From assembly GCA_009777835.1 (NCBI GenBank), contig WRKZ01000012.1, positions 1 through 38,709 on the forward strand: 38,709 bases of DNA, given 5' to 3'. This DNA is from Oscillospiraceae bacterium. GTDB lineage: Bacteria > Bacillota > Clostridia > Oscillospirales > Ruminococcaceae. The notes beneath the pieces are model-generated. The model worked only from the letters and a program-made list of their open reading frames with translations, was not told where the DNA came from and did no database searches. Every line of letters begins with the position of its first letter. The stretch's first letter is position 1. Positions 140 through 32,718 of this stretch are shown here, piece by piece. The position numbers and the translations under genes were made by a program.

Positions 140-168
140 AGTATATCACATTTCGGCGGGAACGTCAA
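140..168 (-). promoter_or_regulatory. SigA-type promoter for the leftward LPTY ORF
   Basis: On the minus strand, -35 TTGACG is at 168-163 and -10 TATACT at 145-140, with exactly 17 nt between. The -35 box overlaps the TGA stop of the patatin fragment (165-167), as if the fragment had been joined to a foreign promoter region. Confidence 0.75.
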
Positions 169-764
169 GGAAAATTTTCGGGGAGTTCGCCCTTGTTAAG
201 TTGCTTTTTGCTCGGTACCGGGAAACCGGCAGAAGCGGCAATCATACGCGAGATAGGCAAATCGGGATTCTGCGTGTACCCTATGTGACTGTCGCCCATG
301 TAATCCCGACGAATACGGAAACTCCCGCCCGTCTCATAAGTGGTGCAATTGATTTCCCAATAAGGAGAATCGGGGAACACCGGCAAATCCTGCAGTGTGC
401 CTTTTATTCCCCATCTTTGTTCGAGCATTTCGGCAATGATTTCCACCCGCTTGTTCCAGTACTGCGGATAAAACGGCAACCGCCGCAACGCCGACTTCTG
501 TATATCACAGGCAAGCATTATTTCGCGGACTTTCCCCAACGTTTCTTCAAGGAAAACGTCGCCCTTCGGCCATTTGTTCCCGCAGGCGGCGAAAATCGCA
601 CCTATACAAAGGCTTGCCCCGGAAACAGAGGATATACTCGTGATTCGTTCGTACAAGCCCGATTCCGCCAGGTATTTCAACACGCCGAGATGATAGATTG
701 CCGCACGGGTTCCGCCCCCCGACAAGGCAAGCCCGATTCGGCACGTATTTACGTTCATACTCAT
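165..764 (-). pseudogene. Patatin-like phospholipase, N-terminal half only
   Basis: Start ATG at 764 overlaps the tgl stop as ATGA, so the two are translationally coupled. The 199-residue product has the patatin oxyanion motif SGGGTR (about 15-20) and the nucleophile elbow SVSGAS with Ser48, and runs on to the conserved AASAGFP segment near residue 180. It then turns into an unrelated tail and stops before the second catalytic motif (DGG). In the family the Ser-Asp dyad needs that Asp, so this fragment should be inactive alone. A matching C-terminal half, starting just before DGG, lies at 32191-32718 in the opposite orientation. A family expert would call this a serine lipid acyl hydrolase, broken after residue 185. 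Confidence 0.85.
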
Positions 765-1522
765 ACAAACAACCTTTCGCCCGGTATATGGCGGAATCCG
801 TTCTTGGCTTCGATTCCCTTCGTCAGAACAGCCGGCGGGAAATGCCGCCATACTGCAACCGCAGTCGGTGAATTCATCACATCGGCGAGTTTTCGAAAAT
901 CGGGGCGGCCGGCTTTGTTCATCAAGTATGCCGATTGTACGTCACCGCTTTTTCGGCGGGAGTTGAGCGATTTTATGATGTTTTCGGCGGTGTTCAGCCC
1001 GATTCCGTGTCCGTAGTACAGACCGTCTTCCAACACGATGACGTTTTCGCCCTGCCATTGCGGTAAATCGGGTGCATGGTCGGGATTTGCGAAGTACGCA
1101 CGGTCGCCGATTAACAGTCCTTCCGAACCTACATCTTCCATTCTGCCGACTTTTCGCAGTAGCGGGTCGCGAATATCCCAGTCCATTAAGTAAATCGTTG
1201 TGAAGGTTTTGTCGAAGAGTTCATCGCCGTAGACCTCAAGAATCGCCTTGTAATAGACGATTTCCATTGCTGTCGCACACTCGGTCGAGTATCTCCAACC
1301 GTTATCGAATATGTCGTTTACCGCCTCACTCGGTTTAACGTTTTGTTTCATGTTCCAGCCGCCGTTTCCGGCGCGATTCCAGTAGTCTTCGTTGCATCTT
1401 GTGTTGGCGAATACAGCGAATGACATTCCGCTTTGGTGCAGTGCGTTGGCGGCATTGCAGATTTCCTCTCTCAGATTCTGCTCGAATTCGTAATACAGAT
1501 TTTCAAGATTTTCGTTGTTCAT
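761..1522 (-). CDS. tgl: Protein-glutamine gamma-glutamyltransferase (Tgl-type transglutaminase)
   Basis: The product is about 253 residues and resembles Bacillus subtilis Tgl, which crosslinks spore coat proteins through epsilon-(gamma-glutamyl)lysine bonds. The catalytic Cys is in ECATAM (Cys82), the Glu in PQWQGENVI (Glu159) and the His in GHGIG (His172). The 13-residue Glu-His spacing equals that of the Bacillus enzyme. The N-terminus is about 34 residues shorter and the C-terminus somewhat longer than Bacillus Tgl. I chose ATG 1522 because GGAG lies 8 nt upstream; a GTG at 1540 is the alternative. It is followed by the coupled patatin fragment. Together with SpoIIID and CwlD in this window it supports a sporulating lineage; a coat role here is inference. 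Confidence 0.88.
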   Translation of the reverse strand: MNNENLENLYYEFEQNLREEICNAANALHQSGMSFAVFANTRCNEDYWNRAGNGGWNMKQNVKPSEAVNDIFDNGWRYSTECATAMEIVYYKAILEVYGDELFDKTFTTIYLMDWDIRDPLLRKVGRMEDVGSEGLLIGDRAYFANPDHAPDLPQWQGENVIVLEDGLYYGHGIGLNTAENIIKSLNSRRKSGDVQSAYLMNKAGRPDFRKLADVMNSPTAVAVWRHFPPAVLTKGIEAKNGFRHIPGERLFV

Positions 1523-1594
1523 ATGTAGTCTCCGTTTCACTCGTTTTTGTTACATCATATGAACAGACATGATTTCGGGTGACTGAAACTCCCG

Positions 1595-1636
1595 GGACGT
1601 GATTTTGTCACGTCCATAGTCGTTTTCAACGACTAT
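1595..1636. other. Two tandem perfect hairpins between tgl and nifS
   Basis: GGACGTGA at 1595-1602 pairs perfectly with TCACGTCC at 1608-1615. Immediately after, ATAGTCGTT (1616-1624) pairs with AACGACTAT (1628-1636). They lie between divergent genes, with neither followed by a clear T-run, so they may be operator-like dyads or transcript structures rather than terminators. Confidence 0.7.
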
Positions 1637-1650
1637 AATCAAAAAATCGC

Positions 1651-1680
1651 TTGACAAAACGGAAATCTTTGTGATATACT
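1651..1680 (+). promoter_or_regulatory. SigA promoter of the nifS-iscU operon
   Basis: TTGACA at 1651-1656 and TATACT at 1675-1680 are separated by 18 nt. They are preceded by an A-tract plus CGC, and TGTGA stands directly before the -10. The resulting leader is about 30 nt. Confidence 0.85.
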
Positions 1681-1717
1681 ATTACTAATCCGCACGGAAA
1701 GGCACGGTCAAAAGAAA

Positions 1718-2902
1718 ATGGAAAAATCAAGCAAAGCAGTCTACCTCGATAACGCAGCCACCACCCGAATCAGCGATACGGTTTTCGAGGGAGTTTTACC
1801 ATATTTGAAAGAACGATACGGGAATCCTTCTTCGGTATATTCACTGGGGCAGGAAAGTGCGCGTGCAATCGAGAAATCGCGCGAACGACTTGCCTCCGCC
1901 TTGAACTGCACCCCCGGCGAAATCTACTTTACGGGCGGCGGAAGCGAGAGCAATAACTGGGCGATTCGTTCCTGCGGGGCTTCTCACATCATCACAAGTG
2001 AATTTGAACATCATGCTGTTCTGCACGTCTGCGAAAATCTCGAAAAACACACAGGAGTCAAAACGACATATTTGCCGGTCTATGCCAACGGAATCATCAA
2101 AATTGAGGATTTAGAAAAAGCGTTACACGAAAATCCCTCCACAGGGCTTGTGACGATTATGTTCGCTAACAATGAAATCGGTACGATTCAGCCGATTGCC
2201 GAAATCGGTAGGTTAATCTCCGATTGGAACAAGAAAAACAGGAAATGTCGATTCCACACAGATGCCGTTCAGGCGGTGGGGAATGTTCCGATTGACGTAC
2301 AGGCAATGAATATCGATATGCTGTCGCTTTCGGGGCATAAATTCCACGGAATGAAAGGGGCGGGCGCATTGTACGTTCGAAAAGGCGTAAAGCTTCCGCC
2401 GTTCATATTAGGCGGGGCGCAGGAACGCGGCAGTCGCGCAGGTACCGAAAACGTTGCGGGAATAGTTGCATTGGGAATCGCCGTTGAAGAAGCGGTCGGC
2501 AATCTCGAAGAGAAAAATGCCCTACTCCTCAAAAAGCGGGAACGGATTTATAACGAAGTCATGAAAATTGAGCGTACACGCTTGAACGGCGACTTAGAAA
2601 AACGATTGTCCAACAACCTCAACTTTTCATTTGAAGGAATCGAGGGGGAAGCGTTGCTTCTAAACCTGGATTTAATGGGGATTGCCGCTTCGAGTGGTTC
2701 GGCGTGTACTTCCGGCTCACTCGACCCGTCTCACGTGCTTCTTGCGTTGGGTCTCCCTCATGAAATAGCGCACGGTTCGCTCAGAATCAGTATGTCGAGG
2801 TATACGACCGACGATGAAATCACTCATTTGCTTGAGGTTTTGCCCCCAATCGTTGCGAAATTACGTGCAATGTCACCCGTATGGGAGAATATTAATGTAT
2901 AA
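1718..2902 (+). CDS. nifS: Cysteine desulfurase (NifS/IscS family)
   Basis: A PLP-dependent class V aminotransferase of 394 residues that removes sulfur from cysteine and hands it to a scaffold for Fe-S cluster assembly. The PLP lysine is in SGHKFHG (Lys208) and the sulfur-accepting cysteine in the mobile loop [10 protein letters not shown] (Cys330), the IscS/NifS-type loop. The N-terminal YLDNAATT motif is intact. An iscU-type scaffold lies 0.6 kb downstream in the same operon, so sulfur transfer partners are co-transcribed. The stop overlaps the start of the next gene by 8 nt. Whether it serves general Fe-S assembly or tRNA thiolation (for instance the TtcA-type protein at 36.6 kb) cannot be told from sequence. 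Confidence 0.95.
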
Positions 2903-3470
2903 TAACTACGACGGTAAGATGCTGAAACGTAAGGAATTGAAAAAACTCACCGATTCCCGACCCGAGCCTGATAAAAGCAGTGAAATAACGCTCACTCAGA
3001 CGCAGTATGAGGAGATGGTCGGGATTCTGCAAAAGCAAAAGAAGTGGTTACCGGGAATGATGATTGGACCCATAATCCTTTTTTTTATGATATGGATGAT
3101 ATGGGGTTTGAATGTAGTATTACATGAAAAACACTCACCTTATTCTGTTATTGTTTTTGCGATAGTTACGATTATCTGTATAGGGATTGTTGTTCCGAAG
3201 ATTGTTTTTGATTTGCGCAAGACGCATAAAAGGTGCGAGCGACTCCTGGAAAGCCTTGAAAGGGGAAGATATCGTGCATATGCTTTAGATATCACGCGCA
3301 AGGCTTTTTATTTCGGCGGAGAAGAGAGTGACTGTTTCTACATTGAATGTGGTGACTTTAGAATACTCACGGAAGAAACCCGGTTGTACAACAAAGCAAA
3401 GTCACGGCTCATTGCCGTTTTTGCTCAAGACAATGAAAATCAGACGGAAATTTTTTTATCAGGAGAATGA
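2895..3470 (+). CDS. Small two-helix membrane protein of unknown function
   Basis: I do not recognise this 191-residue protein. ATG 2895 has GGGAG 7 nt upstream and overlaps the nifS stop. The N-terminal 60 residues are charged and cytoplasmic-looking. Two hydrophobic segments follow (about residues 59-78 and 88-107), then a charged C-terminal domain of about 80 residues. It sits between nifS and iscU in a tight operon, which hints at a link to Fe-S assembly or only at hitch-hiking. The stop TGA overlaps an ATG (ATGA) that opens a 15-residue micro-ORF leading into iscU. Confidence 0.75.
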
Positions 3471-3514
3471 AGGTTCTCAATGGGGTTTTGCGCCTCGGAA
3501 AGGAATGGTCATAA
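3467..3514 (+). other. Micro-ORF ending Trp-Ser-stop, 3 nt before iscU
   Basis: Reads [15 protein letters not shown] then TAA. The ATG overlaps the stop of the membrane-protein gene as ATGA, and the stop lies 3 nt before the iscU ATG. The same C-terminal pattern (K-x-W-S-stop, DNA TGGTCATAAT) recurs before the PL11 gene and, as GGWS, before aspS. Coding status is uncertain; it may instead be a conserved ribosome-binding leader. Confidence 0.4.
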
Positions 3515-3517
3515 TAT

Positions 3518-3964
3518 ATGATATATACAGAAAAAGTTATGGAACACTTCGCAAATCCACAGAACGTCGGTGAGTTACCCGATGCTAACGGTATCGGTGA
3601 AGTCGGTAATGCCAAATGCGGCGATATCATGAAAATCTACCTGAAAATCGAGGACGGGGTCATAGTTGACGTACGGTTCAAGACTTTTGGGTGCGGTGCG
3701 GCGATTGCCACATCTTCGGTATCGACAGAATTAATCAAAGGTAAGCGAATCGAAGACGCGCTCAGTCTCTCGAACAAGACGGTAGTGGATGCTCTGGGCG
3801 GATTGCCTTCGGCAAAGCTCCACTGTTCGGTGTTAGCCGAACAGGCGGTTAAAGCTGCGGTGGCTGATTATTACAAACGTCAGGGAATCGACCCGGAACT
3901 GTTTGTCGGTAAATGCGACGACAGCGAACATCATTGTTGCGGCGAAGGCGAAAATTGCGGTTAA
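3518..3964 (+). CDS. iscU: Fe-S cluster scaffold protein (IscU/NifU N-terminal type)
   Basis: The 148-residue protein carries the three cluster-binding cysteines of the scaffold family: Cys34 in AKCGD with the adjacent Asp36, Cys59 in FGCGAA, and Cys103 in LHCSVLAE. It would assemble [2Fe-2S] or [4Fe-4S] clusters from sulfur supplied by NifS. It ends in a short His/Cys-rich tail (HHCCGEGENCG) that adds further potential ligands beyond the core fold; this tail is unusual relative to enterobacterial IscU, though similar Cys-rich ends occur in clostridial NifU-like proteins as far as I recall. The upstream GGAAAGG is the likely SD. A second, nearly identical leader is found before the next gene. 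Confidence 0.93.
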   Translation: MIYTEKVMEHFANPQNVGELPDANGIGEVGNAKCGDIMKIYLKIEDGVIVDVRFKTFGCGAAIATSSVSTELIKGKRIEDALSLSNKTVVDALGGLPSAKLHCSVLAEQAVKAAVADYYKRQGIDPELFVGKCDDSEHHCCGEGENCG

Positions 3965-4007
3965 AAACAGAGGCTACTTTGTGTCTCGGAAAGATATGGT
4001 CATAATC

Positions 4008-6542
4008 ATGATTATTAAGGGTGTTAAGTCGAGATTTATTGCGCTATCGGTTGTGTTCGCTGTTATAGTGGGGAGTTTTTCGCTGTTTGTATTGCCTATG
4101 TCGGGGGCAGATGGTGTTCCTGTTGTGGAATTCCTCAACAGGGGAATCGTTGCGGTCAGGGCGCGAACCGGAATCTTCGTGAGTTGGCGGCACTTAGCGA
4201 GTGACCCCGATGATGCTGTATATCGGCTTTATCGTGACGGTACGCTGATTCATACAACCTCCGATACGGGGGCGACCTGTTTTAATGACACCTCCGGAAC
4301 AATAACATCGGTTTATCGGGTTGATGCCGTTTCGGGAAACACCGTCTATCACAGTGAAGACAAGGTAATCCGTGCGAACACCTTCCTCAATAATCAAACC
4401 GGGGGCGGGTATTTTGATATTCCGATTTCAAAGCCGAGTAACTCCCACCATGCTAACGACTTAACCGTCGGGGATGTTGACGGAGACGGTGAATATGAAA
4501 TCTTCATTAAATGGGAGCCCGATAACGCGAAAGATAACTCACAATCGGGAACCACCGACAATGTGTTCATCGATTGCATTAAATTGGACGGAACCCTTCT
4601 CTGGCGAATTGATTTAGGGCGGAATATCCGTGCGGGGGCGCACTATACGCAGATGTTGGTTGCCGATTATGACCTGTCGGGAAGCGCGAAGTTAATCGTC
4701 AAGACCGCCGACGGCACCCGCGACGGATTGGGTAACGTCATCGGTAATGCCAATGCCGACCATCGCAATTCGAGCGGGTACATACTTTCCGGACCGGAAT
4801 ATCTGACATTGTTCGACGGAAAAACCGGTGCGAATCTGCACACCATTGATTATAAGCCGGGTCGAGGAAATGTCAACGCCTGGGGTGACAATTACGGTAA
4901 CAGGGTGGATAGATTTTTAGGCGCGGTCGCCTATTTAGATGGGGTTAAGCCGAGTGCGGTACTCATTCGCGGGTACTATACCCGAATGACGGCGACCGCT
5001 TACGATGTTGTCAATGACAGATTAGTGGAGAAGTGGGCATTCGACTCCGGAAATAATTCAAGTGCGCAGGGGTACGGTCAAGGAAATCACAACTGTATGC
5101 CCGCCGCTCTCGGAAACGATTCACGCCAATCGATTGTTTTGGGTTCATGTGCAATCGGCCCTGACGGGACTATGCTGTGGGACGCACGGCAGGGTCACGG
5201 GGACGCATTACACGTGGGGAATTTCATTCCCGAACGTCCGGGGGTGGAAGTGTTCATGTGTCACGAGAATTCGCCGTTTGGGGTTTCGCTGAAAAGTAAT
5301 ACAGGGGAGGTTCTGTGGCGCAGTAACGGAAGCAGTGATACCGGTCGCGGGGCTGCCGGAAACATTTTCGCCGGAAATAACGGTGCGGAATTCTGGGGTT
5401 CGCAACCTGACGGAGTGCTTAACACTTCGGGACAGCGGATTTCCGGTATGCCGAAGCCTACCATTAATCACCTCATCTGGTGGAATGGTGAGCTTGAGCG
5501 GCAATTCGCGGACGGAACAGGCGGGAATGACTCCAACCTCAAAATAGAGCGGATTAACGCCGCCGGAACAGGCATCGACCGTGTATTCACAACTGTAGGC
5601 GACCTCACCATAAACGGTACAAAGAAGAATCCCGGGCTAACCGCCGACTTGTTCGGTGACTGGCGGGAAGAAATCGTGTTGAGAACCGCTGATTCGTCGG
5701 CTTTGCGGGTGTATTCCACCGTCACGCCGACTTCTTATCGGATTACTACGCTTATGCACGACCCGCAATACCGAAATCAGGTTGCGGGGCAGAATGTTTG
5801 TTATAATCAGCCGCCACATCCGAGCTTTTTTCTGGGAATGGGACACCCGCTCCCTAAACAGCCCAATGTTGTGGTGAGGGGACAAGGAGGCGATTCCCCG
5901 ATAACCACCACTGCGACTGAAACTACGACTTCGGCAACTTCGACTGCTACGACTACTGCGACTACTGCGACTACTGCGACTTCGACTACTGCGACTACCG
6001 CGACTTCGGCAACTACGACTACGGCAACTTCGACGGCTACGACTACGGCAACTTCGACTGCTACGACTACGACGGCTTCGACTGCTACGACTACGACGGC
6101 TTCGACTGCTACGACTACGACGGCTTCGACTGCTACGACTACCGCGACTTCGGCAACTACGACTACGGCGACTTCGACTGCCACGACTACGGCGACTTCG
6201 ACTGCCACGACTACGGCGACTTCGACTGCCACGACTACGGCAACTTCGACTGCTGAGACTACGGAAACTACGGATGCCGAAACCTCTTCGCACGGTATTC
6301 AACCATTACTCGGGGATACCGACGGAAACGGTCGTGTTACGATTGCAGACGCGCTTGAGCTTCTCAAGCATCTTGCTGGAATGAGTTCGTTGGTTTCGCA
6401 GGATAATCCCGAATTATGGGTGAATTCCTTGATTACCCCGGCAAGCCAAGCGGCGAACAAACCCGCAATCGCCGATGTACTTGAGATTCTGAAATATCTT
6501 GCACGAATGTCGAGTTTAGTGAGCGGCGAACGACCTACGTAA
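4008..6542 (+). CDS. Secreted rhamnogalacturonan lyase (PL11) with Thr-rich linker and dockerin
   Basis: The 844-residue exoenzyme cleaves the rhamnogalacturonan I backbone of pectin. Order: signal peptide (MIIKGVKSRF then a hydrophobic run ending near SGADG), a YesW-like PL11 catalytic domain (about 30-625) with many Asp-rich DVDGDG/DYDLSG loops expected to bind Ca2+, a Thr/Ala/Ser linker (about 630-760), and a C-terminal dockerin (about 765-844). The first dockerin loop DTDGNGRVTIAD is canonical. The second (SQAANKPAIAD) has lost most Ca2+ ligands although its helix VLEILKYLARM is kept. ATG 4008 is chosen because it starts directly at the signal peptide; in-frame ATG 3996 is possible. The dockerin implies attachment to a cohesin-bearing scaffoldin elsewhere in the genome. 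Confidence 0.92.
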   Translation: MIIKGVKSRFIALSVVFAVIVGSFSLFVLPMSGADGVPVVEFLNRGIVAVRARTGIFVSWRHLASDPDDAVYRLYRDGTLIHTTSDTGATCFNDTSGTITSVYRVDAVSGNTVYHSEDKVIRANTFLNNQTGGGYFDIPISKPSNSHHANDLTVGDVDGDGEYEIFIKWEPDNAKDNSQSGTTDNVFIDCIKLDGTLLWRIDLGRNIRAGAHYTQMLVADYDLSGSAKLIVKTADGTRDGLGNVIGNANADHRNSSGYILSGPEYLTLFDGKTGANLHTIDYKPGRGNVNAWGDNYGNRVDRFLGAVAYLDGVKPSAVLIRGYYTRMTATAYDVVNDRLVEKWAFDSGNNSSAQGYGQGNHNCMPAALGNDSRQSIVLGSCAIGPDGTMLWDARQGHGDALHVGNFIPERPGVEVFMCHENSPFGVSLKSNTGEVLWRSNGSSDTGRGAAGNIFAGNNGAEFWGSQPDGVLNTSGQRISGMPKPTINHLIWWNGELERQFADGTGGNDSNLKIERINAAGTGIDRVFTTVGDLTINGTKKNPGLTADLFGDWREEIVLRTADSSALRVYSTVTPTSYRITTLMHDPQYRNQVAGQNVCYNQPPHPSFFLGMGHPLPKQPNVVVRGQGGDSPITTTATETTTSATSTATTTATTATTATSTTATTATSATTTTATSTATTTATSTATTTTASTATTTTASTATTTTASTATTTATSATTTTATSTATTTATSTATTTATSTATTTATSTAETTETTDAETSSHGIQPLLGDTDGNGRVTIADALELLKHLAGMSSLVSQDNPELWVNSLITPASQAANKPAIADVLEILKYLARMSSLVSGERPT
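5905..6260 (+). repeat. ACN-rich linker repeat in the PL11 gene
   Basis: Degenerate trinucleotide array encoding Thr, Ala and Ser. Part of it (around 6055-6135) is organised as near-perfect 24-bp units containing TTCGACTGCTACGACT, encoding STATTTTA. Such arrays change length by slippage, and the open antisense frames over it are artefacts of the repeat. Confidence 0.9.
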
Positions 6543-6592
6543 GGGACTCCTGTAAATTTTAAAAAATTTCAGAAAAATTTTAGAAAAAACAC

Positions 6593-9316: not shown

Positions 9317-10744
9317 TCACTCGCCTTTCAGTTTACTCTCAAGAATATTTTTCACGGTTGCCGGGGCTGCCGAGCCTTTCAGCTCTTTACTCGCCTGACC
9401 CATCAAGAATCCGAAAACCTTGACTTCACCGTTGCGATATTGTTCGACTGCTTTCGGATTAGCTTCGAGAACTTTGTTAATAACCGCCTCGACCGCTCCG
9501 GAATCTTCTTTCAGCCATAAATCCCCTTCATCGCAGATTTGCCCCGGCGATTTACCGGATTCCAGCATCTCCCGCAGAACATCTTTACGGACATCACGAT
9601 TAAGTTTGCCTTCATCTACCGAACGCTGTAAGTCGGCGAAATCGGCAGGGGAAAACGGTAATGCCCCCATGTCGGCTTCCCCGAGATTGACCCGCCGCAA
9701 CAATTCCACTACAATAAAATTCGCCAGTGTCTTCGGGTTATTATGAACAGCAACTGCCGCATCATAAAAGTCTGACACCCTTTTATCGTTCAGAATAATC
9801 ACCGCATCTTTTTCAGCCAGTTTGAAGTCGTTGACGTAGCGTTTTAAGCGAATTCCCGGCAGTTCCGGCAGTGCTTGTCTGAATCGCTCGATTTCCTCCT
9901 CACTCAACACCACGGGGGGAATATCCGGGTCGGGGAAATAACGATAATCATGAGCATCCTCTTTAGTTCGCATCGGGATTATTTCCCCGGTAGCATCGTC
10001 GAATCGCAGGGTCTGCTGAATAATCGCCTCCCCATTTTCCAGAAGGTCGGTTTGTCGCTCGATTTCGGCGGCAATCGCCCTGCCAATCGCCTTAATCGAG
10101 TTAAGGTTCTTGATTTCGGTACGAGTACCGAGTTTCTCGCTCCCGAAAGGAGCAAGCGATATATTCACATCGCAACGAAGCGAACCCTGTTCCATTTTCC
10201 CGTCGCAGATGTCGCCGTATTGAAGAATTTGTCGCAGTTTTTCAACATATGCGACAACCTCCTCGGCTGAGTGGAAATCAGGCTCTGTAACGATTTCAAT
10301 CAGCGGAACACCGGTACGATTATAATCGGCAAGGCTTTTTCCACCTACATGATTGAGTTTTCCCGCATCTTCTTCCAAATGGATTCGGTTAAGGCGAATG
10401 GTTTTGGTTTCGCCGCCCGCCTCTATTTCAAGTCCGCCGCCGACACATACCGGGCGTTCCATCTGTGAGACTTGATATGCCGCAGGTAAATCGGGGTAGA
10501 AATAATTCTTCCGCTCCCATTTTGTGAATCGAGAGATTTTACAATCCAGGGCGAACCCCGCACGAACAATCAATTCCAACGCTTTTTTATTCAGTGAGGG
10601 TATCGCACCGGGAAATCCCGAACACCCGATACAGCAATGCTCATTCTCTTCCCCGCCGAACTTTGCCGAACAAGAACAGAACAATTTCGACTCGGTCATG
10701 AGTTCCGCGTGAGTCTCGAGTCCTATTGTAGGGTATAGTTTCAT
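9317..10744 (-). CDS. gatB: Asp/Glu-tRNA amidotransferase subunit B
   Basis: The 475-residue GatB subunit binds the mischarged tRNA and activates the Asp/Glu side chain with ATP. Signature segments are LYPTIGLETHAEL at the N-terminus, the zinc cysteines CSCSAKFG and EHCCIGCSG, and EIKNLNSIKAI. The C-terminal YqeY-like tail (about 330-475) is intact. The start is preceded by AGAGGTGAAG, an SD that lies in inserted sequence: an exact 45-bp copy of the gene start lies 110 bp upstream (10813-10857), originally coupled to gatA by an ATGA overlap. The present gatB is therefore translated from the inner duplicate. Confidence 0.96.
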   Translation of the reverse strand: MKLYPTIGLETHAELMTESKLFCSCSAKFGGEENEHCCIGCSGFPGAIPSLNKKALELIVRAGFALDCKISRFTKWERKNYFYPDLPAAYQVSQMERPVCVGGGLEIEAGGETKTIRLNRIHLEEDAGKLNHVGGKSLADYNRTGVPLIEIVTEPDFHSAEEVVAYVEKLRQILQYGDICDGKMEQGSLRCDVNISLAPFGSEKLGTRTEIKNLNSIKAIGRAIAAEIERQTDLLENGEAIIQQTLRFDDATGEIIPMRTKEDAHDYRYFPDPDIPPVVLSEEEIERFRQALPELPGIRLKRYVNDFKLAEKDAVIILNDKRVSDFYDAAVAVHNNPKTLANFIVVELLRRVNLGEADMGALPFSPADFADLQRSVDEGKLNRDVRKDVLREMLESGKSPGQICDEGDLWLKEDSGAVEAVINKVLEANPKAVEQYRNGEVKVFGFLMGQASKELKGSAAPATVKNILESKLKGE

Positions 10745-10747
10745 CGA
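10703..10747. repeat. 45-bp direct repeat, copy at the gatB start
   Basis: Identical base for base to 10813-10857. This copy covers the first 14 codons of the functional gatB. The two copies bracket 65 bp that contain a hairpin repeat. Confidence 0.97.
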
Positions 10748-10854
10748 ACTTCACCTCTCATCGTCAAGCAGCCTGCCGCCGGCGAAGCCGCCGCCCGCTG
10801 CTCTTGTTTTGCTTCCGCGTGAGTCTCGAGTCCTATTGTAGGGTATAGTTTCAT
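10741..10854 (-). pseudogene. Decoy gatB start: 37-codon ORF from the duplicated 5' end
   Basis: Begins MKLYPTIGLETHAE exactly like gatB, then runs through the hairpin repeat (AKQEQRAAAS...) and stops at TGA 10743-10741, overlapping the ATG of the true gatB. It overlaps the gatA stop (ATGA), as the ancestral gatB must have done. It may now act as a translated leader linking gatA to gatB. Confidence 0.75.
10763..10812. repeat. Hairpin repeat copy A, between gatA and gatB
   Basis: CAAGCAGC pairs with GCTGCTCTTG (CT bulge), and an inner CGGC-GAA-GCCG hairpin is enclosed. The same architecture with different, compensating stem bases occurs at 33282-33334 and 28267-28318. The 3' edge GCTCTTGTTTTGC is shared with the copy beside tRNA-Val. 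Confidence 0.85.
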
Positions 10855-10857
10855 CGA
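10813..10857. repeat. 45-bp direct repeat, upstream copy at the gatA end
   Basis: Identical to 10703-10747. Contains the gatA stop codon and the old gatB start (ATGA overlap), which identifies it as the ancestral position. Confidence 0.97.
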
Positions 10858-16496: not shown

Positions 16497-16516
16497 GACT
16501 TTCGTTGCGGCGCAAT
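16497..16516 (+). repeat. 20-bp dispersed motif, solo copy before prs
   Basis: GACTTTCGTTGCGGCGCAAT lies in the 99-nt gap between glmU and prs. GTTGC and GCAAT can pair around a 3-nt loop. It is related to the copies at 28141, 28550, 29804 and 32183. The gap also carries ATATTTACGGAGTTAAA, which recurs with few changes before the first CPBP gene (about 17540-17558). Confidence 0.8.
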
Positions 16517-25021: not shown

Positions 25022-25693
25022 ATGAAATTAAAAATGGTTTTAGCAGTTGTTTTTGCATTGGTGTTATTGCTTAATGGTTGTTCAGAAACAAATAATAGTA
25101 AAATAGATGTGCTACAGGAAGTTTCAGAAGACTTGGGTGAATCAATAGCCTGTTTTTCTCCGTGGGTGAGTGTGTTAATCAAAGATTCCATCGATTTCGA
25201 GAGTGAAATTATTAATCGAATAAAAATTCCACCGGAAACAGATGACTCGGATGGAGATTATCATTTATATTTTACAAATGAGATAGGACGTATATCAAGC
25301 TTTTATAATCTTGTGAATTTAAAAATTGACGGATATACGTTAAACAAGGCTGACATTAATAAGCAAAATTTTATTTATTACTTTGAATCAATAGAAGAAA
25401 AAGTTGAAAGTTCTTCTATTTTAGTAACAATAACTCGACAAGATTGGAATGTTACTCATTATCCTAAAATCGACCCATATGAACGCATATTAGAAACAAT
25501 AATGTTTGGAGCCGATACCTATTTGACTGAAGATAATTTTGTATATTACGAAAGTGCAAATCGTATTTTAGCTCAAATAGGGGATACAATTTTCACAATC
25601 TCCGTCCCCGAACACCTCGCCGACTACGAATACCTCCGTGACCTTGCGTTTGATTTGATTAAATCGGCTGAGTTGGTAAAGGTGGGCGAGTAG
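25022..25693 (+). CDS. Predicted lipoprotein, paralogue 1
   Basis: 223 residues with a lipoprotein signal (lipobox LNGC near residue 20); I do not recognise the family. The mature part is A+T-rich, acidic and mostly unlike its neighbour, but the last 50 residues (RILAQIGDTIFTISVPEHL and on) match the next gene, and 51 bases of that end are identical between the two. It follows the ChW protease by 40 nt with GGGAGG as SD, suggesting a shared surface function or co-acquisition. Confidence 0.8.
   Translation: MKLKMVLAVVFALVLLLNGCSETNNSKIDVLQEVSEDLGESIACFSPWVSVLIKDSIDFESEIINRIKIPPETDDSDGDYHLYFTNEIGRISSFYNLVNLKIDGYTLNKADINKQNFIYYFESIEEKVESSSILVTITRQDWNVTHYPKIDPYERILETIMFGADTYLTEDNFVYYESANRILAQIGDTIFTISVPEHLADYEYLRDLAFDLIKSAELVKVGE
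25604..25654 (+). repeat. 51-bp identical segment, lipoprotein 1 copy
   Basis: Identical to 26388-26438. G+C-rich compared with the rest of both genes; encodes VPEHLADYEYLRDLAFD. Confidence 0.95.
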
Positions 25694-25733
25694 GCGGGAA
25701 AACGTTTCTTGCTATGAGCGGGAGGAGAATATT

Positions 25734-26477
25734 ATGAAAACTAAAAAAATCATTGCAACGCTTATTGCCGTTGTATTACTCACAACACTTTCCGGGTGCG
25801 AAAATGTAGAAGAAGTGGGTTCTTCCTCTGATTATGAAAATGCAAGAGAAGAATCTTCCAACGAGTATAAAGAATCTGAAGAATCAGATAAAATTTTTGA
25901 AGAAAGCTGTAACGAAGTTGCCTCGGTAGAAATATTGGGTAACAATAGGACAAATTTCAAAAGTGAAATTATTAACGAAATCGAAAAATCCAAAACTTTA
26001 ACCCGCAATGATAATAATTATGGAACGTATTCAGCAAATAGAATTCCGGAAATTAAGGAGTTTTATTACCCTAAAATCGAAATTGAAGGGTATGAATTGT
26101 TTGTTGTGCATTTAACAAAATTCAGTATTATGTATTATTACGCTCCCGGTGAAAAACTCAAAAAGGAAGAAGAGTTTATTCCGTGGCAAATGTATGATGA
26201 CAGTATTAATGTGCTAATACGGAGACCGGACTCAAAAAATGCCCATAATGCCCATGATGATTCTTTAGAAAAAATTGCCGAAGCAAATGCCCATAATGGT
26301 ATGGTTTTAACCGTTGATAATCTTTTGTATTATCGTGATGGCGATAATGTTCGAGGTCAAGTTGGTGAAGTGAACTTCCGTATAACTGTCCCCGAACACC
26401 TCGCCGACTACGAATACCTCCGTGACCTTGCGTTTGATGTAATCAAAAACGCCGAACTAGTCACCGTGAAAGATTGA
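25734..26477 (+). CDS. Predicted lipoprotein, paralogue 2
   Basis: 247 residues with lipobox LSGC near residue 22, a Glu/Ser-rich spacer (about 25-60) and an unrecognised mature domain. The region FKSEIINEIEKSKTL and the C-terminal VPEHLADYEYLRDLAFD align with paralogue 1, so the two come from a duplication. A short internal repeat NAHNAHD/NAHNG is visible (about 166-186). GGGAGGAG precedes the ATG. It closes the A+T-rich island before a bidirectional terminator. Confidence 0.8.
   Translation: MKTKKIIATLIAVVLLTTLSGCENVEEVGSSSDYENAREESSNEYKESEESDKIFEESCNEVASVEILGNNRTNFKSEIINEIEKSKTLTRNDNNYGTYSANRIPEIKEFYYPKIEIEGYELFVVHLTKFSIMYYYAPGEKLKKEEEFIPWQMYDDSINVLIRRPDSKNAHNAHDDSLEKIAEANAHNGMVLTVDNLLYYRDGDNVRGQVGEVNFRITVPEHLADYEYLRDLAFDVIKNAELVTVKD
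26388..26438 (+). repeat. 51-bp identical segment, lipoprotein 2 copy
   Basis: Identical to 25604-25654, in the same codon frame. Confidence 0.95.
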
Positions 26478-26590: not shown

Positions 26591-26611
26591 GTTAATTTAA
26601 GAAAAACGCGC

Positions 26612-26986: not shown

Positions 26987-27027
26987 TGTTATAATTCTCC
27001 TTTTTTAATATGTGTGTTTGGATTTTT

Positions 27028-27588: not shown

Positions 27589-27592
27589 TCTT

Positions 27593-27775
27593 CTTTCGTT
27601 TTCTCCTTTCGTTAAAATTCGAGGAAGTAAAAAAGCCTTTTCTTTGCTTCTTTAATAAAGTAAGAAGCTTTGAGAAAAGGGCTTACATGGCTATAATTCA
27701 AGTACGCACACATTCCTCGGCGGGATTTACAAAATCGGATTTTCGCCGATGAACACCCGCTGTCTGTAGAACAGC
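27593..27775 (-). ncRNA. Ribosomal protein L10 leader with attenuator
   Basis: On the minus strand the L10-binding motif is visible as ACAGCGGGTG followed by AAATCCCGCCGAGGA, and nearer the gene lies an intrinsic terminator (AAGCCCTTTTCT with AGAAAAGGCTTTTTT, 27629-27684). This is the Firmicutes L10 leader layout: binding of L10/L12 should favour termination. Confidence 0.88.
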
Positions 27776-27781
27776 AGATTA

Positions 27782-27810
27782 ATCATAGCACAATTTTGCG
27801 TGAAAGTCAA
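27782..27810 (-). promoter_or_regulatory. Promoter of rplJL
   Basis: On the minus strand TTGACT (27810-27805), 17 nt, TATGAT (27787-27782). An A/T-rich tract lies between it and the divergent tRNA promoter and could serve both as an UP element. Confidence 0.85.
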
Positions 27811-27860
27811 GCGTTTTTTTGAATTTTTTTGAAATTTCTGAAAATTTTTTCAAAAAACGC

Positions 27861-27889
27861 TTGACAAACTGTTTTTTCTATGATATAAT
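27861..27889 (+). promoter_or_regulatory. Promoter of tRNA-Thr(GGT)
   Basis: TTGACA at 27861-27866, 17 nt, TATAAT at 27884-27889. Preceded by AAAAAACGC, the same upstream sequence as at several other promoters in the window. Confidence 0.9.
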
Positions 27890-27987
27890 CAGACTTGCTT
27901 GTGGGTTTCTTCTGAATTTCAAGCCGATTCTCCATGAAAATTAAACTTTTGCCATGTTTCGGCAATTTATCTTGGGAATGTTAAACC

Positions 27988-28060
27988 GCTTCTATGGCGC
28001 AGTAGGTAGCGCGCATCCTTGGTAAGGATGAGGTCATCGGTTCGAATCCGATTAGAAGCT
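27988..28060 (+). tRNA. tRNA-Thr (GGT)
   Basis: Acceptor GCTTCTA pairs with TAGAAGC; anticodon stem CATCC/GGATG with loop TTGGTAA gives anticodon GGT; T-arm ATCGGTTCGAATCCGAT. Discriminator T, no encoded CCA. Confidence 0.95.
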
Positions 28061-28078
28061 CTCGCTTTTTCGTAAAAA

Positions 28079-28140
28079 ACGCTTGAAACTCAAATTTTCG
28101 AGCGGTTTTTGTTTTTAGCCTATTCGTATAGGCTTTTTTT
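28079..28140 (+). terminator. Tandem intrinsic terminators after tRNA-Thr(GGT)
   Basis: First hairpin GCTTGAAA/TTTCGAGC (28081-28103) followed by GGTTTTTG; second, perfect hairpin AGCCTAT-TCGT-ATAGGCT (28117-28134) followed by T6. Confidence 0.88.
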
Positions 28141-28160
28141 GTTGCCTGCGCAACGAAAGT
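28141..28160 (-). repeat. 20-bp dispersed motif, inverted copy
   Basis: Minus strand ACTTTCGTTGCGCAGGCAAC; GTTGC and GCAAC pair perfectly. Together with the plus copy at 28550-28569 it forms outward-pointing inverted repeats around about 0.4 kb. Confidence 0.75.
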
Positions 28161-28264
28161 TGGTACTGTGCGCCGAACTCCTATGATATACTATGAATTA
28201 AGAAATCGAAAAGGGCGGGAGAAACGGCGGAAAAATCTGAAAATTGAGGGAGGTGTGAAAAAGT

Positions 28265-28363
28265 TTGAATAAGAGCTCACGGGGTCGGCGGCTTCTCCGT
28301 CGAGCAGGTGAGCTTGACAGGCTTGAATTCATGCCACTTTGTGGCAGAAAGTCATGGTCATAA
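28265..28363 (+). other. Possible small ORF through hairpin C, ending GRKSWS-stop
   Basis: From a TTG with GGGAGG 11 nt upstream, 32 codons stay open through the hairpin repeat to TAA 28361-28363. An internal ATG at 28331 gives MPLCGRKSWS. The end matches the W-S-stop leaders found before iscU, the PL11 gene and aspS, but here no gene start lies 2-3 nt downstream. Probably non-coding or a remnant. Confidence 0.3.
28267..28318 (-). repeat. Hairpin repeat copy C
   Basis: On the minus strand it begins GTCAAGCTCACCTGC and ends CCCCGTGAGCTCTTATTC. The stem AAGCTCAC/GTGAGCTCTT has the same CT bulge as copies A and B but different paired bases, and it encloses a CGG-AGAAG-CCG loop. Confidence 0.75.
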
Positions 28364-28390
28364 CAGTCAAAAAAATCCATGTCAATTCTC

Positions 28391-28419
28391 TTGACATTCC
28401 CCCGGGAACGTGGTATAAT
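28391..28419 (+). promoter_or_regulatory. Strong promoter of the structured RNA
   Basis: TTGACA at 28391-28396, 17 nt, TATAAT at 28414-28419, TGG directly before the -10. One of the closest matches to consensus in the window. Confidence 0.88.
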
Positions 28420-28425
28420 TATTAA

Positions 28426-28598
28426 ACTGCAACAAATGTCTTGACATTTGTCGGTTTAATTTGCCGGCTGCGTCGGTTGCCCCATAGGGGCGAGACGCAG
28501 GGCAATTTTGAGCAACGGAAGTCACGAGCGGCTCTGCCGTGAGTGTCAAGACTTTCGTTGCGGAGCAATAGTCAGTTTGAAAAAGCTTCGGCATTTTT
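28426..28598 (+). ncRNA. Candidate structured non-coding RNA or long 5' leader
   Basis: Begins about 7 nt after a near-consensus -10. Hairpins in order: ACAAATGTC/GACATTTGT (28432-28451), a two-tier CTGCGTC/GACGCAG with inner GCCCC-ATA-GGGGC (28468-28500), TCACG/CGTGA (28522-28542), and GACT..GTTGC/GCAAT..AGTC (28550-28573). AAACTG at 28424 can close with CAGTTT at 28573-28578. A UUCG-capped hairpin (AAAAAGC-TTCG-GCATTTTT, 28580-28598) resembles a terminator. No known RNA family recognised. It could be a stand-alone RNA of about 170 nt or a regulatory leader of the gene at 28668. Confidence 0.55.
28550..28569 (+). repeat. 20-bp dispersed motif, copy inside the structured RNA
   Basis: GACTTTCGTTGCGGAGCAAT, one mismatch from the copy after the recombinase (32183-32202) and one from that before prs (16497-16516). 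Confidence 0.85.
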
Positions 28599-28667
28599 GA
28601 ACCGGGTAGCTTTGCTATGCTGTGCGAAACACGCATAAAAAGAATATATTATCGGGGGTAAAGAAGA

Positions 28668-29291
28668 ATGACTAACGCAGGAAATCTCATAGCGGATGTA
28701 CCGCTCAAAAAGAAAGGGAGGAGTGCGCAATTTTTCAGCGACCGCGTAGAATTTAACGGACAGAGCGTTCGTTATGATGATATCGACATATTAAGAACAA
28801 AGGCTCAAACCACGATTCATACATACGCCGCCATTCCGGTAGGGCGTAGCTTTGATGGTGCGGTTAATTTCAAGATGAAGAACGGTAAATCATTAAAAAT
28901 AAACTTAAGCAGTATGACTGTTTTGGGGATACCGTTCGGCGGCAGTGCCCGCAAGAACGAGAAATTATATCCCGCTTTGTTTGATGCTGTCTTTTCTGTT
29001 GTCGCGCAAAATATGGCGCAAAGGTATATAGAGATGATAAGGGCGGGCAATCAGGTCGAGGTTGCGGGGCTTATCATTAACGGTTCGGCGGCTTCCCCCA
29101 AGCCTAAGGGAAAGAAACCCGTTACCGTTTCAATTACGAGAGAGAATTACCGTGATGCGCAAATTAACGGGGGTTACGGTGTAATGGTATACGATAAATC
29201 AGGTGAAAGCATCTGGTGTTCTTCGGTGTGGGATAACGCAAACGTCTTGGTTCTCCCGTATATCCTCGATACTTTTTTCGGTACGGTTTAG
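28668..29291 (+). CDS. Unknown protein, possible PH-like domain
   Basis: 207 residues, not recognised with confidence. No signal peptide or membrane helix. The first 110 residues alternate short strands (RSAQFFSDRVEFNGQSVRYDDIDILRTKAQT) and end in a helix, the pattern of bacterial pleckstrin-homology-like domains. The C-terminal part (about 150-207) contains ITRENYRDAQINGGYGVMVYD and SSVWDNANVLVLPYIL. It follows the structured RNA by about 70 nt with GGGGGTAAAG as SD. The next gene also looks PH-like, so the two may act together. Confidence 0.7.
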   Translation: MTNAGNLIADVPLKKKGRSAQFFSDRVEFNGQSVRYDDIDILRTKAQTTIHTYAAIPVGRSFDGAVNFKMKNGKSLKINLSSMTVLGIPFGGSARKNEKLYPALFDAVFSVVAQNMAQRYIEMIRAGNQVEVAGLIINGSAASPKPKGKKPVTVSITRENYRDAQINGGYGVMVYDKSGESIWCSSVWDNANVLVLPYILDTFFGTV

Positions 29292-29311
29292 TTTGAAAGT
29301 AAGGAGGACGC

Positions 29312-29731
29312 ATGACCGATACCAAGTGCCGTATTTGCAAAGCAAAACTTAAGGGGGGAATTTGTAATCGGTGCGGTGCCGAATCAATAAGAGAACAACT
29401 CGTGATTTCCGCGGGCGGGCATACTTGGCTGAACGACGGCAGAAAAAACATAAACAAATTTTCGGCTTGCAAGGTTGCCGTTACGAATTTCCGATTAATT
29501 ATCTATAAAATCAAACCCGAAGCGGAAGACCATGCTTTGTCGTTCTTTAAAATGATTGCCAACGCAATCAAAAAAGTTCCCCACATATCCGTTAACCTAG
29601 GCGATATTGAATATGTGAGACGATACGATTCAAAGTTCGTAATCGGAACACGTACCAATGAGTATTCCGTGTCACTGAGCAAGCACAAGGAGTTCCATGA
29701 GTTGCTTGCGAAATATTATCCTCCGGATTGA
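29312..29731 (+). CDS. Zinc-ribbon plus PH-like domain protein
   Basis: 139 residues. An N-terminal Cys4 zinc ribbon (CRICKAKL, then CNRCGAE; residues 6-23) is followed by a PH-like domain: VTNFRLIIYKI, IEYVRRYDSKFVIGTRTNEYSVSLSKHKEFHELLAKYY. This order is seen in small bacterial proteins of unknown role. It starts 20 nt after the previous gene with AAGGAGG. The 200 nt after it hold a copy of the 20-bp motif, a hairpin and then the tRNA-Thr promoter. Confidence 0.72.
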   Translation: MTDTKCRICKAKLKGGICNRCGAESIREQLVISAGGHTWLNDGRKNINKFSACKVAVTNFRLIIYKIKPEAEDHALSFFKMIANAIKKVPHISVNLGDIEYVRRYDSKFVIGTRTNEYSVSLSKHKEFHELLAKYYPPD

Positions 29732-29803
29732 TTTTTCTGCGGGGCTTTTTCGTTGTTTCAAGGGGGTTGAACTGATTTTAGCGAGGGATGTGTAAGGTAT
29801 TAA

Positions 29804-29818
29804 GGCGCAACGAAAGTC
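29804..29818 (-). repeat. Dispersed motif, inverted partial copy
   Basis: Minus strand GACTTTCGTTGCGCC. With the plus copy at 32183-32202 it forms outward-pointing inverted repeats around tRNA-Thr(TGT), the integrase remnant and tnpW-tnpX. A hairpin CCGACGC-AA-GCGTCGG follows at 29869-29884; read on the minus strand the stretch TGCGTCGGTT resembles part of the structured RNA at 28.47 kb. Confidence 0.65.
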
Positions 29819-29938
29819 CCGAACGACTTTGCCTGCTTTCGAGAGCCTCAGTCCGCTTGATGAGAGAACCGACGCAAGCGTCGGGGGATTATATCCTTAC
29901 TTTCAATAAAAATGAGATAAAAATTTTTACGAAAACGC

Positions 29939-29967
29939 TTGACAAACGAAAAGATTTGTGATATAAT
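29939..29967 (+). promoter_or_regulatory. Promoter of tRNA-Thr(TGT)
   Basis: TTGACA at 29939-29944, 17 nt, TATAAT at 29962-29967, with AAAACGC upstream and TTGTGA before the -10. Confidence 0.9.
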
Positions 29968-29982
29968 GCTTTGAGATGAGTC

Positions 29983-30056
29983 GCTGGTGTAGCTCAATTC
30001 GGTAGAGCAGCTGATTTGTAATCAGCAGGTTAGGGGTTCAAGTCCGTTCACCAGCT
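29983..30056 (+). tRNA. tRNA-Thr (TGT)
   Basis: Acceptor GCTGGTG pairs with CACCAGC; anticodon stem GCTGA/TCAGC with loop TTTGTAA gives TGT; T-arm GGGGTTCAAGTCC. Discriminator T. Its 3' side borders the integrase remnant, as at many tRNA integration sites. Confidence 0.95.
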
Positions 30057-30064
30057 TCAATAAC

Positions 30065-30096
30065 AAGAAAACCTGCTTTACAAGCGGGTTTTCTTT
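30065..30096. terminator. Terminator after tRNA-Thr(TGT)
   Basis: AAGAAAACCTGCTT pairs with AAGCGGGTTTTCTT (one T-G pair) around TAC. It also covers the stop codon of the leftward integrase remnant. Confidence 0.88.
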
Positions 30097-30257
30097 AGAT
30101 TATCAACAGGGCTGAACTTGCCGAAGTTGACTAACATTTTCGAGGGAATCAGCTGTGCGTAACGTTTAGTCATTTCGAGGGTGGTATGACCTCCGGTTAA
30201 CTTGACCACAGGTTGATTCAACTCCCTCCAACAAATCAGAGCGATAGTCGGATTTCT
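30078..30257 (-). pseudogene. C-terminal remnant of a tyrosine integrase
   Basis: The minus strand is open for about 59 codons to TAA 30080-30078 and reads LNQPVVKLTGGHTTLEMT, KRYAQLIPSKMLV. GGHTTLEMTKRYAQ matches the end of the phage integrase fold: the third catalytic His (usually LGH) and the Tyr nucleophile in RYAH. The catalytic Arg and Lys regions are missing and an in-frame TGA bounds it upstream. It faces the tRNA-Thr 3' end. It is most likely the relic of an island once integrated at this tRNA. Confidence 0.8.
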
Positions 30258-30280
30258 TCACGGTTGTTACTTTTTCGGAA

Positions 30281-30309
30281 TTAGACAAGCGGTAAGCCGA
30301 ATATATATA
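30281..30309 (+). promoter_or_regulatory. Possible promoter of tnpW-tnpX
   Basis: TTAGAC at 30281-30286, 17 nt, TATATA at 30304-30309. Weaker than the other promoters here. Confidence 0.5.
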
Positions 30310-30344
30310 GTAGCGGACAACTTTTGCGAAAGGGATGTACTGCT

Positions 30345-30515
30345 ATGAATACGAATGAGAATAAATCACTTGAAAATAAATCGTCGCAATATGACGAATA
30401 TGCCGAGTATAAAATCGGAACTACTATATATATCGTAACAGGAACATATAAAAAAGAAGGAAAAGAGGGGTTGTTAGATAAATTATGGCGGTTAATTAAA
30501 AGTGATGGCAATTAG
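30345..30515 (+). CDS. tnpW: TnpW-like small transposon protein
   Basis: 56 residues with an acidic/polar N-terminus and the conserved core KIGTTIYIVTGTYKKEGKEG then LLDKLWRLIKSDGN. This is the pattern of TnpW, the small protein encoded next to TnpX in Tn4451-type elements; its role is not defined. ATG 30345 has AAAGGG upstream. The stop lies 22 nt before the GTG start chosen for tnpX. The pairing identifies the element type even though no cargo remains. Confidence 0.82.
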   Translation: MNTNENKSLENKSSQYDEYAEYKIGTTIYIVTGTYKKEGKEGLLDKLWRLIKSDGN

Positions 30516-30537
30516 TGCTTTACATTTTGGAGAAATC

Positions 30538-32184
30538 GTGAATATCTTGGATTACAAAATCGGCATGAAGTTGCCCGACAAAATTACCGTGCTTTATTCA
30601 AGACTTTCACGCGATGATAAGGACAAAGATAAGGAGAGTAACAGCATTATCAATCAAAAGAAAATGTTGGCTCAACTTGCTTTTGAACTCAATCTACCTA
30701 ACCCGATTTTTTTTACAGACGATGGCGTAAGTGGGACAACCTTTGAGAGACCTCACGTTCAGGCAGCGTTATCATTAATGGAAGAGGGACGTGTAAAGTG
30801 TTTCGTCACAAAGGATTTAAGCCGTTTCGGACGAGATAACGCCCTTGTCAACTACTACATTGACTACGTATTCCCCAAAAAGGACATACGTTTTATAGCA
30901 AAGGATGACAATGTTGATATCACAACAGGCTTGAAAAGTATGGAAACACAGTTCAAGATAATGTTTAATGAGCATTATCCTCGCGAAACAAGTGAAAAGG
31001 TTAGGGCGGTGTTTCGTGCGAAAGGGATGGCGGGTGAACCGCTCACCTTTAATCCGCCCTACGGCTATGCGAAATCCCTCGATAATCCCAAGCAGTGGAT
31101 TATCGACGAATCGTCTGCACAGATAGTACGACAGATTTTTCAGTGGTGTATGGAGGGGTTAGGGGTTACGCATATCGCCAATCGATTACGCGCGGAACAA
31201 GTCGAAACCCCGATTGTTTACGCAAACAATGCGGGTATTCGCAAAAGTGAAAAATTCATCGACCCTTATGACTGGAACGATACCACAGTCGGCAGAATTT
31301 TAGAACGCCGTCAATATCTCGGACACACCGTAAACTTCCAAACTTATCGCAAATCTTACAAGGATAAAAGGCAGTTTCAAAATGCCCCCGAAAATCAATA
31401 TGTTTTCGAGAATACACATCCCGCAATCATTGAGACGGAAGTTTTCGAGAGGGTACAACAAATCCGTCAAGGCGGGAAAAGACGGCGTAATCACAGCGGA
31501 CGTGTTGCTCTGTTTTCGGGATTGGTTTTCTGCGCAGATTGCAAGAATAAACTCTATATGTCAAGTGGTGCTTGCTTAAAGCCCGAAAACGATAACTTTT
31601 CCTGTTCGGCATTCCGCACGAAAAAGAATCCGTGTCATTCATCGCACTATATTCGGCGAGTCGTCTTGGAACAAGCGGTTTTGCAGTTCGTTCGGCAAGT
31701 GTCGTATTATGCGCAGAATCACGAGAAGGCTTTTTTGCAAAAACTCCAAACACGGAATACCGACAGATTCCGCAAAGAGTTTGCAATCGACAAGAAATCC
31801 TTACAGCAAGCCGAAAGACGCATACAGGAGTTAGACGGTATAATTCAAAAGCTGTTCGAGGGGAATGTGACGGGCAAAATCTCTGATGAACGGTTTGCCA
31901 AGCTGTCTCAAACTTACGAGCAGGAACAAAAAGACTTAACGTCTCAAATCGAATTCTTGCAAGAGCGGGTCGCGTCTCGTCGCGTAGCGAGCGAAAATTT
32001 AAATAACTATAGTATCGACAGTATCGACGTTGAGATGTTTTTGTCGAGAATCCGTAAATACACCCGTCCAACCGAATTGACCACTGTAATGCTTAATGAG
32101 TTAATCGAGCGGGTTGAAGTTCATGCCCCTGATAAGAGTTCGGGGAAACGGGTTCAGCAAATCGACGTTTATTTCAATTATTGA
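30538..32184 (+). CDS. tnpX: Large serine recombinase, TnpX/TndX type
   Basis: About 548 residues. The resolvase domain comes first (VLYSRLSRDD with the catalytic Ser; DDGVSGTTFERP; VTKDLSRFGRDN), then the recombinase domain (NPPYGYAKS to RILERRQYLGHTV), a zinc ribbon (CADC, later CSAF and NPCHSS), and a coiled coil (about 430-490). Such enzymes excise and insert elements between short sites; Tn4451 TnpX recombines at a GA dinucleotide. GTG 30538 is chosen for its GGAG 5 nt upstream; an open GTG at 30502 is also in frame. The C-terminus IDVYFNY may be a few residues short of relatives. Only 6 nt after the stop the patatin C-half begins in the same frame. Confidence 0.93.
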   Translation: MNILDYKIGMKLPDKITVLYSRLSRDDKDKDKESNSIINQKKMLAQLAFELNLPNPIFFTDDGVSGTTFERPHVQAALSLMEEGRVKCFVTKDLSRFGRDNALVNYYIDYVFPKKDIRFIAKDDNVDITTGLKSMETQFKIMFNEHYPRETSEKVRAVFRAKGMAGEPLTFNPPYGYAKSLDNPKQWIIDESSAQIVRQIFQWCMEGLGVTHIANRLRAEQVETPIVYANNAGIRKSEKFIDPYDWNDTTVGRILERRQYLGHTVNFQTYRKSYKDKRQFQNAPENQYVFENTHPAIIETEVFERVQQIRQGGKRRRNHSGRVALFSGLVFCADCKNKLYMSSGACLKPENDNFSCSAFRTKKNPCHSSHYIRRVVLEQAVLQFVRQVSYYAQNHEKAFLQKLQTRNTDRFRKEFAIDKKSLQQAERRIQELDGIIQKLFEGNVTGKISDERFAKLSQTYEQEQKDLTSQIEFLQERVASRRVASENLNNYSIDSIDVEMFLSRIRKYTRPTELTTVMLNELIERVEVHAPDKSSGKRVQQIDVYFNY

Positions 32185-32202
32185 CTTTCGTTGAGGAGCA
32201 AT
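32183..32202 (+). repeat. 20-bp dispersed motif at the recombinase 3' end and patatin junction
   Basis: GACTTTCGTTGAGGAGCAAT overlaps the tnpX stop codon and includes the GAGCAA hexamer (32196-32201) shared with the patatin N-half. Its place is where the end of a TnpX-type element would be expected. Confidence 0.8.
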
Positions 32203-32718
32203 GTTGATAAAATCAAAAAAATGTTTTATCGCACCCCCTCCGACGGTGGTGTCTACGACAATCTCGGACTCGAAGCACTATACAAAATCGGACGCGGATT
32301 GGACAAAGAAATCGACTTCATAATAGTCTCGGATGCCTCATCACACATATCGTTCCAAAAGCGTAAGGGAACTGCTTCCATTGCGAATATGCGGAGATTG
32401 CTTGACATTTCGTCGTACCAGGTCTATGCGTTGCGAAGTCGCGAACTCCACGCAAATATAACAGAAAAGCGGCAGGGTATGCACTTGAAAATCGGGAAAC
32501 ACGGAAGCCAAATCGCATCGGATTTCGGTGTTGAACCTATTATCTCCGATTGTCTCACGTATGAGGAAACGGCATATGCGCGGGATTACTGCACAACGCT
32601 TCACACGCCTTGCCGTCACGATTTTGACTTGATTCTTCGCCATGGTTACGAGACCGCAAAGTTCACGAAACAATTCGGCGAGATGTCGCTCAACCTCACC
32701 TCAACGAAAAGAGCGTAA
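32191..32718 (+). pseudogene. Patatin-like phospholipase, C-terminal half only
   Basis: Open from a TTG to TAA 32716-32718 (175 codons). It starts just before the second patatin catalytic motif, SDGGVYDNLGLEALYKIGRG, which carries the dyad Asp, and continues through the usual C-terminal part (SFQKRKGTASIANMRRLL, TTLHTPCRHDFDLILRHGYE). The nucleophile half is absent. It complements the N-half at 165-764: the codons AGC AA are in the same phase in both, and joining there gives GFPVPS-NVDKIKKMF with no frameshift. No SD precedes the TTG, so it is probably not translated on its own. Confidence 0.85.

Follow-up and report, generated by a model that had tools for sequence, protein, structure and literature searches.

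The window analysed here, a stretch of 38,709 bases that makes up the whole of contig C12 in the assembly of an Oscillospiraceae bacterium (1.74 Mb, 93 contigs, 95% complete), carries two separate pieces of a patatin-like phospholipase, patN and patC, the second of which lies directly beside a TnpX-type recombinase gene. patN (216..758, minus strand) is the N-terminal part with the GGG and GASLC motifs. Its open reading frame (ORF; 165-851, minus strand) matched the Pfam family Patatin (PF01734) with an E value of 2.5e-9 and 38.1 bits against a cut-off of 27.7, over model positions 1-164 of 191, and the part was 72 to 77% identical to four intact homologues from the same genus, whose host genomes are presumably from termite guts. 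The homology stopped after SAGFPV, with GTA (218-216) as the last homologous codon, and the frame ran on through a tail (165..215, minus strand) in which no patatin homology was seen. patC (32233..32718, plus strand, within ORF 32191-32718) is the C-terminal part, in which patatin homology resumed at 32233-32242, just before the DGG motif. It gave no Pfam match; the intact homologue of genome G047 matched PF01734 with 71.4 bits, above the cut-off. The two fragments described in an earlier note on this DNA are thus real. No single protein combines the two catalytic motifs: patN is what we take to be the catalytic-serine part and patC, on an ORF of its own, the catalytic-aspartate part. In its motifs, and in the Pfam scores of patN and the G047 gene, the window gene resembles patatin-like phospholipases, but it is in two pieces and its middle was not found.

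The right junction was marked by a transposon-like gene pair. TnpW (30324..30515, plus strand; PF14202, E = 1.8e-7, 31.2 bits against 25) is followed by a TnpX/TndX-type large serine recombinase (30502..32184, plus strand) with Resolvase, Recombinase, Zn-ribbon and DUF4368 domains. The stretch between its stop and patC (32185..32231, plus strand) contained the box TGTTTTAT about 40 nt past the stop, and similar boxes were present 37 to 54 nt past the stop of related tnpX genes. Within 80 nt of the stop, the box was matched at 7 or more of its 8 positions in 7 of 19 tnpX-type genes, that of the window among them, whereas 500 shuffles gave a mean of 1.29 and no more than 6. The box had been picked after the sequences were viewed, and the shuffles preserved single-base composition only. 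The 19 genes were that of the window and those of 18 of the 19 kept recombinase loci; the sequence of L063, the one left out, stopped too early. With the box after the recombinase stop and TnpW upstream, this stretch is the probable right-hand end of a TnpX-type element directly adjoining patC. A TnpX-type recombinase at the right break, as placed there by the earlier note, is supported by its domains, its tnpW neighbour and the box. The first 17 nt past the stop, in addition to belonging to the probable element end, matched a dispersed 17-mer, CTTTCGTTGMGGMGCAA. This 17-mer occurred at 41 places in the same genome with at most 2 mismatches (10 of them exact), compared with 2 for the reversed control, and was located in the window at 16499, 28552 and 32185. 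It edged a palindromic repeat in many of the 30 loci viewed, sometimes ahead of a start codon.

Only tnpW and tnpX were recognised in the 2 kb between an integrase-like remnant and patC, and the left end of the element was not found there. A GA dinucleotide is present near both breaks and may or may not mark the crossover point. Recombinases of this kind were found in 55 of 99 genomes, its own included (E up to 1e-60). DUF4368 characterises a multi-targeting clade to which TndX-like transposases belong (PMC10083194). The TndX recombinase of Tn5397 works with a central GA and has a preference for Fic-domain genes in C. difficile (PMC4430133), and for Tn4451 numerous sites (GA) are listed (PMC5704250). 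Insertion of an element with such a low-specificity recombinase into a gene would be ordinary and would explain the right break. In another genome, G012, a patC-only fragment (L021 1573-3659) began about 9 codons inside the DGG region and adjoined a serine recombinase, about 250 bp from the recombinase start; DUF4368 was not among the matches of that protein, and the N-terminal part of the patatin was not found in this 87%-complete genome. This truncation near DGG hints that patatin genes may be a recurrent target, which two cases cannot establish. Among the papers listed in a limited literature search, no report of TnpX-type elements in patatin genes came to our notice. Separately, genome G003 (L116 6500-9000) contained a broken-looking TnpX-like recombinase gene (30% identity across residues 213-560). 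It adjoins tRNA-Cys and tRNA-Asn and is upstream of an amidase-pyk pair, with another recombinase near the pair.

The segment between the two breaks was also examined. The spacing from SAGFPV to DGG was exactly 34 residues in nine of nine intact homologues, with invariant positions among these residues. When the G047 protein was searched against the genome of the window, only residues 1-181, 213-301 and 303-331 were matched. At E up to 10, nothing in the assembly matched the remaining 31 of the 34 residues (G047 residues 182-212), although a lone piece so short could escape the search, and within the window no convincing match to the missing segment was found. The suspicion in the earlier note that sequence had been lost between the halves was thereby borne out. 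The predicted structure of the intact G047 homologue (mean predicted local distance difference test score [pLDDT], 63.8) was too weak near the missing segment to argue from, and a search of solved structures by sequence gave none at E up to 0.01.

The two pieces were complementary, did not overlap and resembled the same relatives, and searches of the assembly recovered one N-type and one C-type patatin piece and no further fragment. Among 119 genomes, patN was matched in 6 and patC in 7, the genome of the window being counted in both, and each of the 6 genomes had a single N match. A wider order-level search with patC matched 2 of 394 genomes, again including its own, and a scan of the collection with patN led to nine loci with intact homologues. 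Because the family is so sparse, it would be unusual for a single genome to have two distinct copies. In phylogenetic trees, in which the N- and C-terminal window pieces were designated winN and winC, winN grouped with the G047 and G006 genes (support 83/90, not starred). The same placement of winC was not rejected (approximately unbiased test, p-AU 0.31), nor was a placement with all four same-genus genes (p-AU 0.23). In addition, over the nine homologues, the N- and C-terminal identities of the window pieces lay at most 1.81 standard deviations off the line of 36 intact pairs, and this divergence fits one gene. These results indicate that patN and patC likely derive from one ancestral gene rather than from two paralogues, which falls short of proof.

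Altogether, we consider that one accessory patatin-like phospholipase gene decayed through element insertion, deletion and rearrangement or contig misjoin, with a probability of roughly 0.6. A TnpW-TnpX element with a low-specificity recombinase would have inserted a few codons before DGG, as the position of the right end against patC suggests. The N-terminal part may then have reached its present position through later deletion and rearrangement, or only seem to be there because metagenomic reads were misjoined. Between the breaks, some 31 to 34 conserved codons would have been lost. The order of these events and the route by which the N-terminal part moved are likewise inferred.

Several observations weigh against this explanation. 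No element end was recognised at the left break, so that insertion accounts for one break out of two. At the right break, the TGTTTTAT box was chosen in the manner described above, and it was absent at 7 of 8 positions from 12 of the 19 tnpX-type genes. On its own tree, winC had no settled position. Its internal stretch was 28 residues long, compared with 33 in four of the nine intact homologues, 8 in one and 1 to 3 in the same-genus four, and winN had a 3-residue insert, as did G047, with 6 residues in G006. This mix of inserts could mean two paralogues. The halves also differed in resampling: nearest to winN was G023 at 0.53, followed by G047 at 0.26 and G027 at 0.19, and nearest to winC was G047 at 0.48, followed by G006 at 0.40.

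The differing inserts also argue for an alternative in which patN and patC are remnants of two patatin paralogues that were truncated separately and are complementary by coincidence. The contexts of the halves differ as well, patC being located between a tRNA-Thr with its integrase-like remnant and spoIIID, and patN beside a transglutaminase-family gene. However, the sparseness of the family, the single N match per genome and the agreement in divergence argue for one gene, and we regard two paralogues as unlikely while giving them some weight.

A second alternative attributes the 32-kb separation and the opposite orientation to a metagenomic misjoin, so that neither would be real. The window is a whole contig in a 93-contig assembly, and patN homology stops about 215 bp from the contig end. 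These bases look intergenic; the stretch 3' of patN (1..164, minus strand, position 1 being the contig end) contains promoter-like stretches, as read by eye, and enters a GGTA microsatellite. The first 217 bases gave short matches only, in 6 of 69 other genomes searched, and were judged intergenic rather than the end of an element. On the other hand, composition had no sharp step at the junctions on a coarse scale of 1,500 bases, nothing pointed to a misjoin directly, and a misjoin alone does not account for the missing codons. A misjoin as the whole explanation therefore seems improbable.

It was also considered that the TnpX-type recombinase once acted as a chromosomal invertase, recombining a site by its own gene with a site in the patatin gene. 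Such an event, which we consider very improbable, would entail an irreversible inversion of about 32 kb of mostly housekeeping genes and a loss of about 100 bp. If true, the inversion of tens of kilobases by large serine recombinases would be another role for a known enzyme class. Plus-strand GC skew at third codon positions (GC3 skew) was positive in the seven genes tested at 16.5-23.3 kb and in the four from 33.5 kb onwards. Between 23.6 and 33 kb it was near zero or mixed, and at 1.7-10.7 kb it was mostly slightly negative. The positive values on both sides of 32 kb speak weakly against an inversion ending there, and the values at about 1.7-10.7 kb, unlike those at the right end, speak for one; being mixed, the skew does not clearly point to a recent inversion with an end at 32 kb, yet may be compatible with one. 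Gene order, which the earlier note had proposed comparing with related genomes, was mapped in 6 of 8 relatives matching the transglutaminase-family gene and 6 of 9 matching the amidase. In the mapped stretches, the two genes were never on one contig and no patatin was found. When 24 ORFs of the window were compared with the surroundings of five intact patatins and the G012 fragment, the patatin pieces alone matched. No mapped relative had the order of the window, and gene order was too little conserved for an ancestral order to be inferred.

The earlier note had explained the locus by a TnpX-mediated inversion of 209-32199 at the hexamer GAGCAA, forming a possibly reversible phospholipase switch. 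The halves are indeed in opposite orientation, with a recombinase at one break, and GAGCAA is present at 213-208 (minus strand) and 32196-32201 (plus strand) in equal codon phase, the right copy 12 nt past the recombinase stop (32184). However, both copies lie outside the patatin homology, the left one in the nonhomologous tail of patN and the right one inside CTTTCGTTGMGGMGCAA, in the probable terminal stretch of the TnpW-TnpX element. In stretches of junction size, 16% of shuffles and 19% of random contig pairs had an in-phase 6-mer in common, and 45 to 48% had one in any phase; a second in-phase 6-mer, CAAAAA, was also common to both junctions. The hexamer is therefore unremarkable as a crossover mark. 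The proposed join would put the tail of patN and the 57 nt from the recombinase stop to DGG in place of the missing segment. As the halves lack the 34 conserved codons that belong between them, merely inverting the DNA would not rebuild the whole gene. A search for repeats of at least 20 nt gave 10 inverted pairs, none of which linked both junctions, although shorter imperfect sites could remain. With no intact gene restored by the inversion, as an invertible switch would have it, and no such repeats at its ends, we find the switch hardly credible. The case illustrates that a hexamer present at both junctions and an open frame can suggest a switch.

Compared with known systems, the window element resembles Tn4451 and Tn5397 (TnpX/TndX) in the four recombinase domains, in tnpW beside tnpX and in adjoining an interrupted gene. 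In contrast to them, only tnpW and tnpX were seen and no left end was found. A serine recombinase by an interrupted gene, in a genome with spoIIID, also recalls the skin and gin gene-intervening elements of spore formers (PMC5595907). Unlike in those elements, the halves in the window are opposite (patN minus, patC plus) and codons are missing, so that excision could not restore the patatin gene. The favoured explanation, decay of one gene with element insertion, makes the locus an ordinary case in which an uncultured bacterium has lost a gene next to a transposon of low specificity.

Other searches concerned the occurrence of the family. Two pattern-based scans of IMG/VR confirmed no relative of either patatin half. 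A defence-system reading was rejected, as neither PADLOC nor NCBIfam gave a match for patN, patC or two intact genes. Plasmid patatin homologues were 42 to 43% identical; of 33 records, 10 rows were listed, and in 3 of these the match touched genes annotated as ThiF or Mov34/MPN.

Among the neighbouring genes, the transglutaminase named in the earlier note next to patN was verified. This gene, TGL (761..1540, minus strand), belongs to the protein-glutamine gamma-glutamyltransferase family (PF20085, 266.7 bits), and its stop and the likely start codon of patN overlap. It scored 269.7 bits against the NCBIfam equivalog, under the cut-off of 307, and had no match among phage records. Left of the TnpW-TnpX pair, tRNA-Thr(tgt) (29983..30056, plus strand) is adjoined by a possible 3' remnant of a tyrosine integrase (30078..30221, minus strand), a by-eye reading with 0 families in library searches. 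To the right of patC lies the chromosomal gene spoIIID (32756..33034, minus strand). Elsewhere in the window, a rhamnogalacturonan lyase that has a dockerin match under the cut-off contains a long low-complexity repeat in its linker (5889-6305). An exact 45-bp direct repeat was located at 10703-10747 and 10813-10857, of which one overlaps the start of a gatB-like gene and the other lies between that gene and a gatA-like gene (names by eye). Finally, two adjoining low-GC proteins at 25022-26477 had common 115-bp stretches that were 75% identical.

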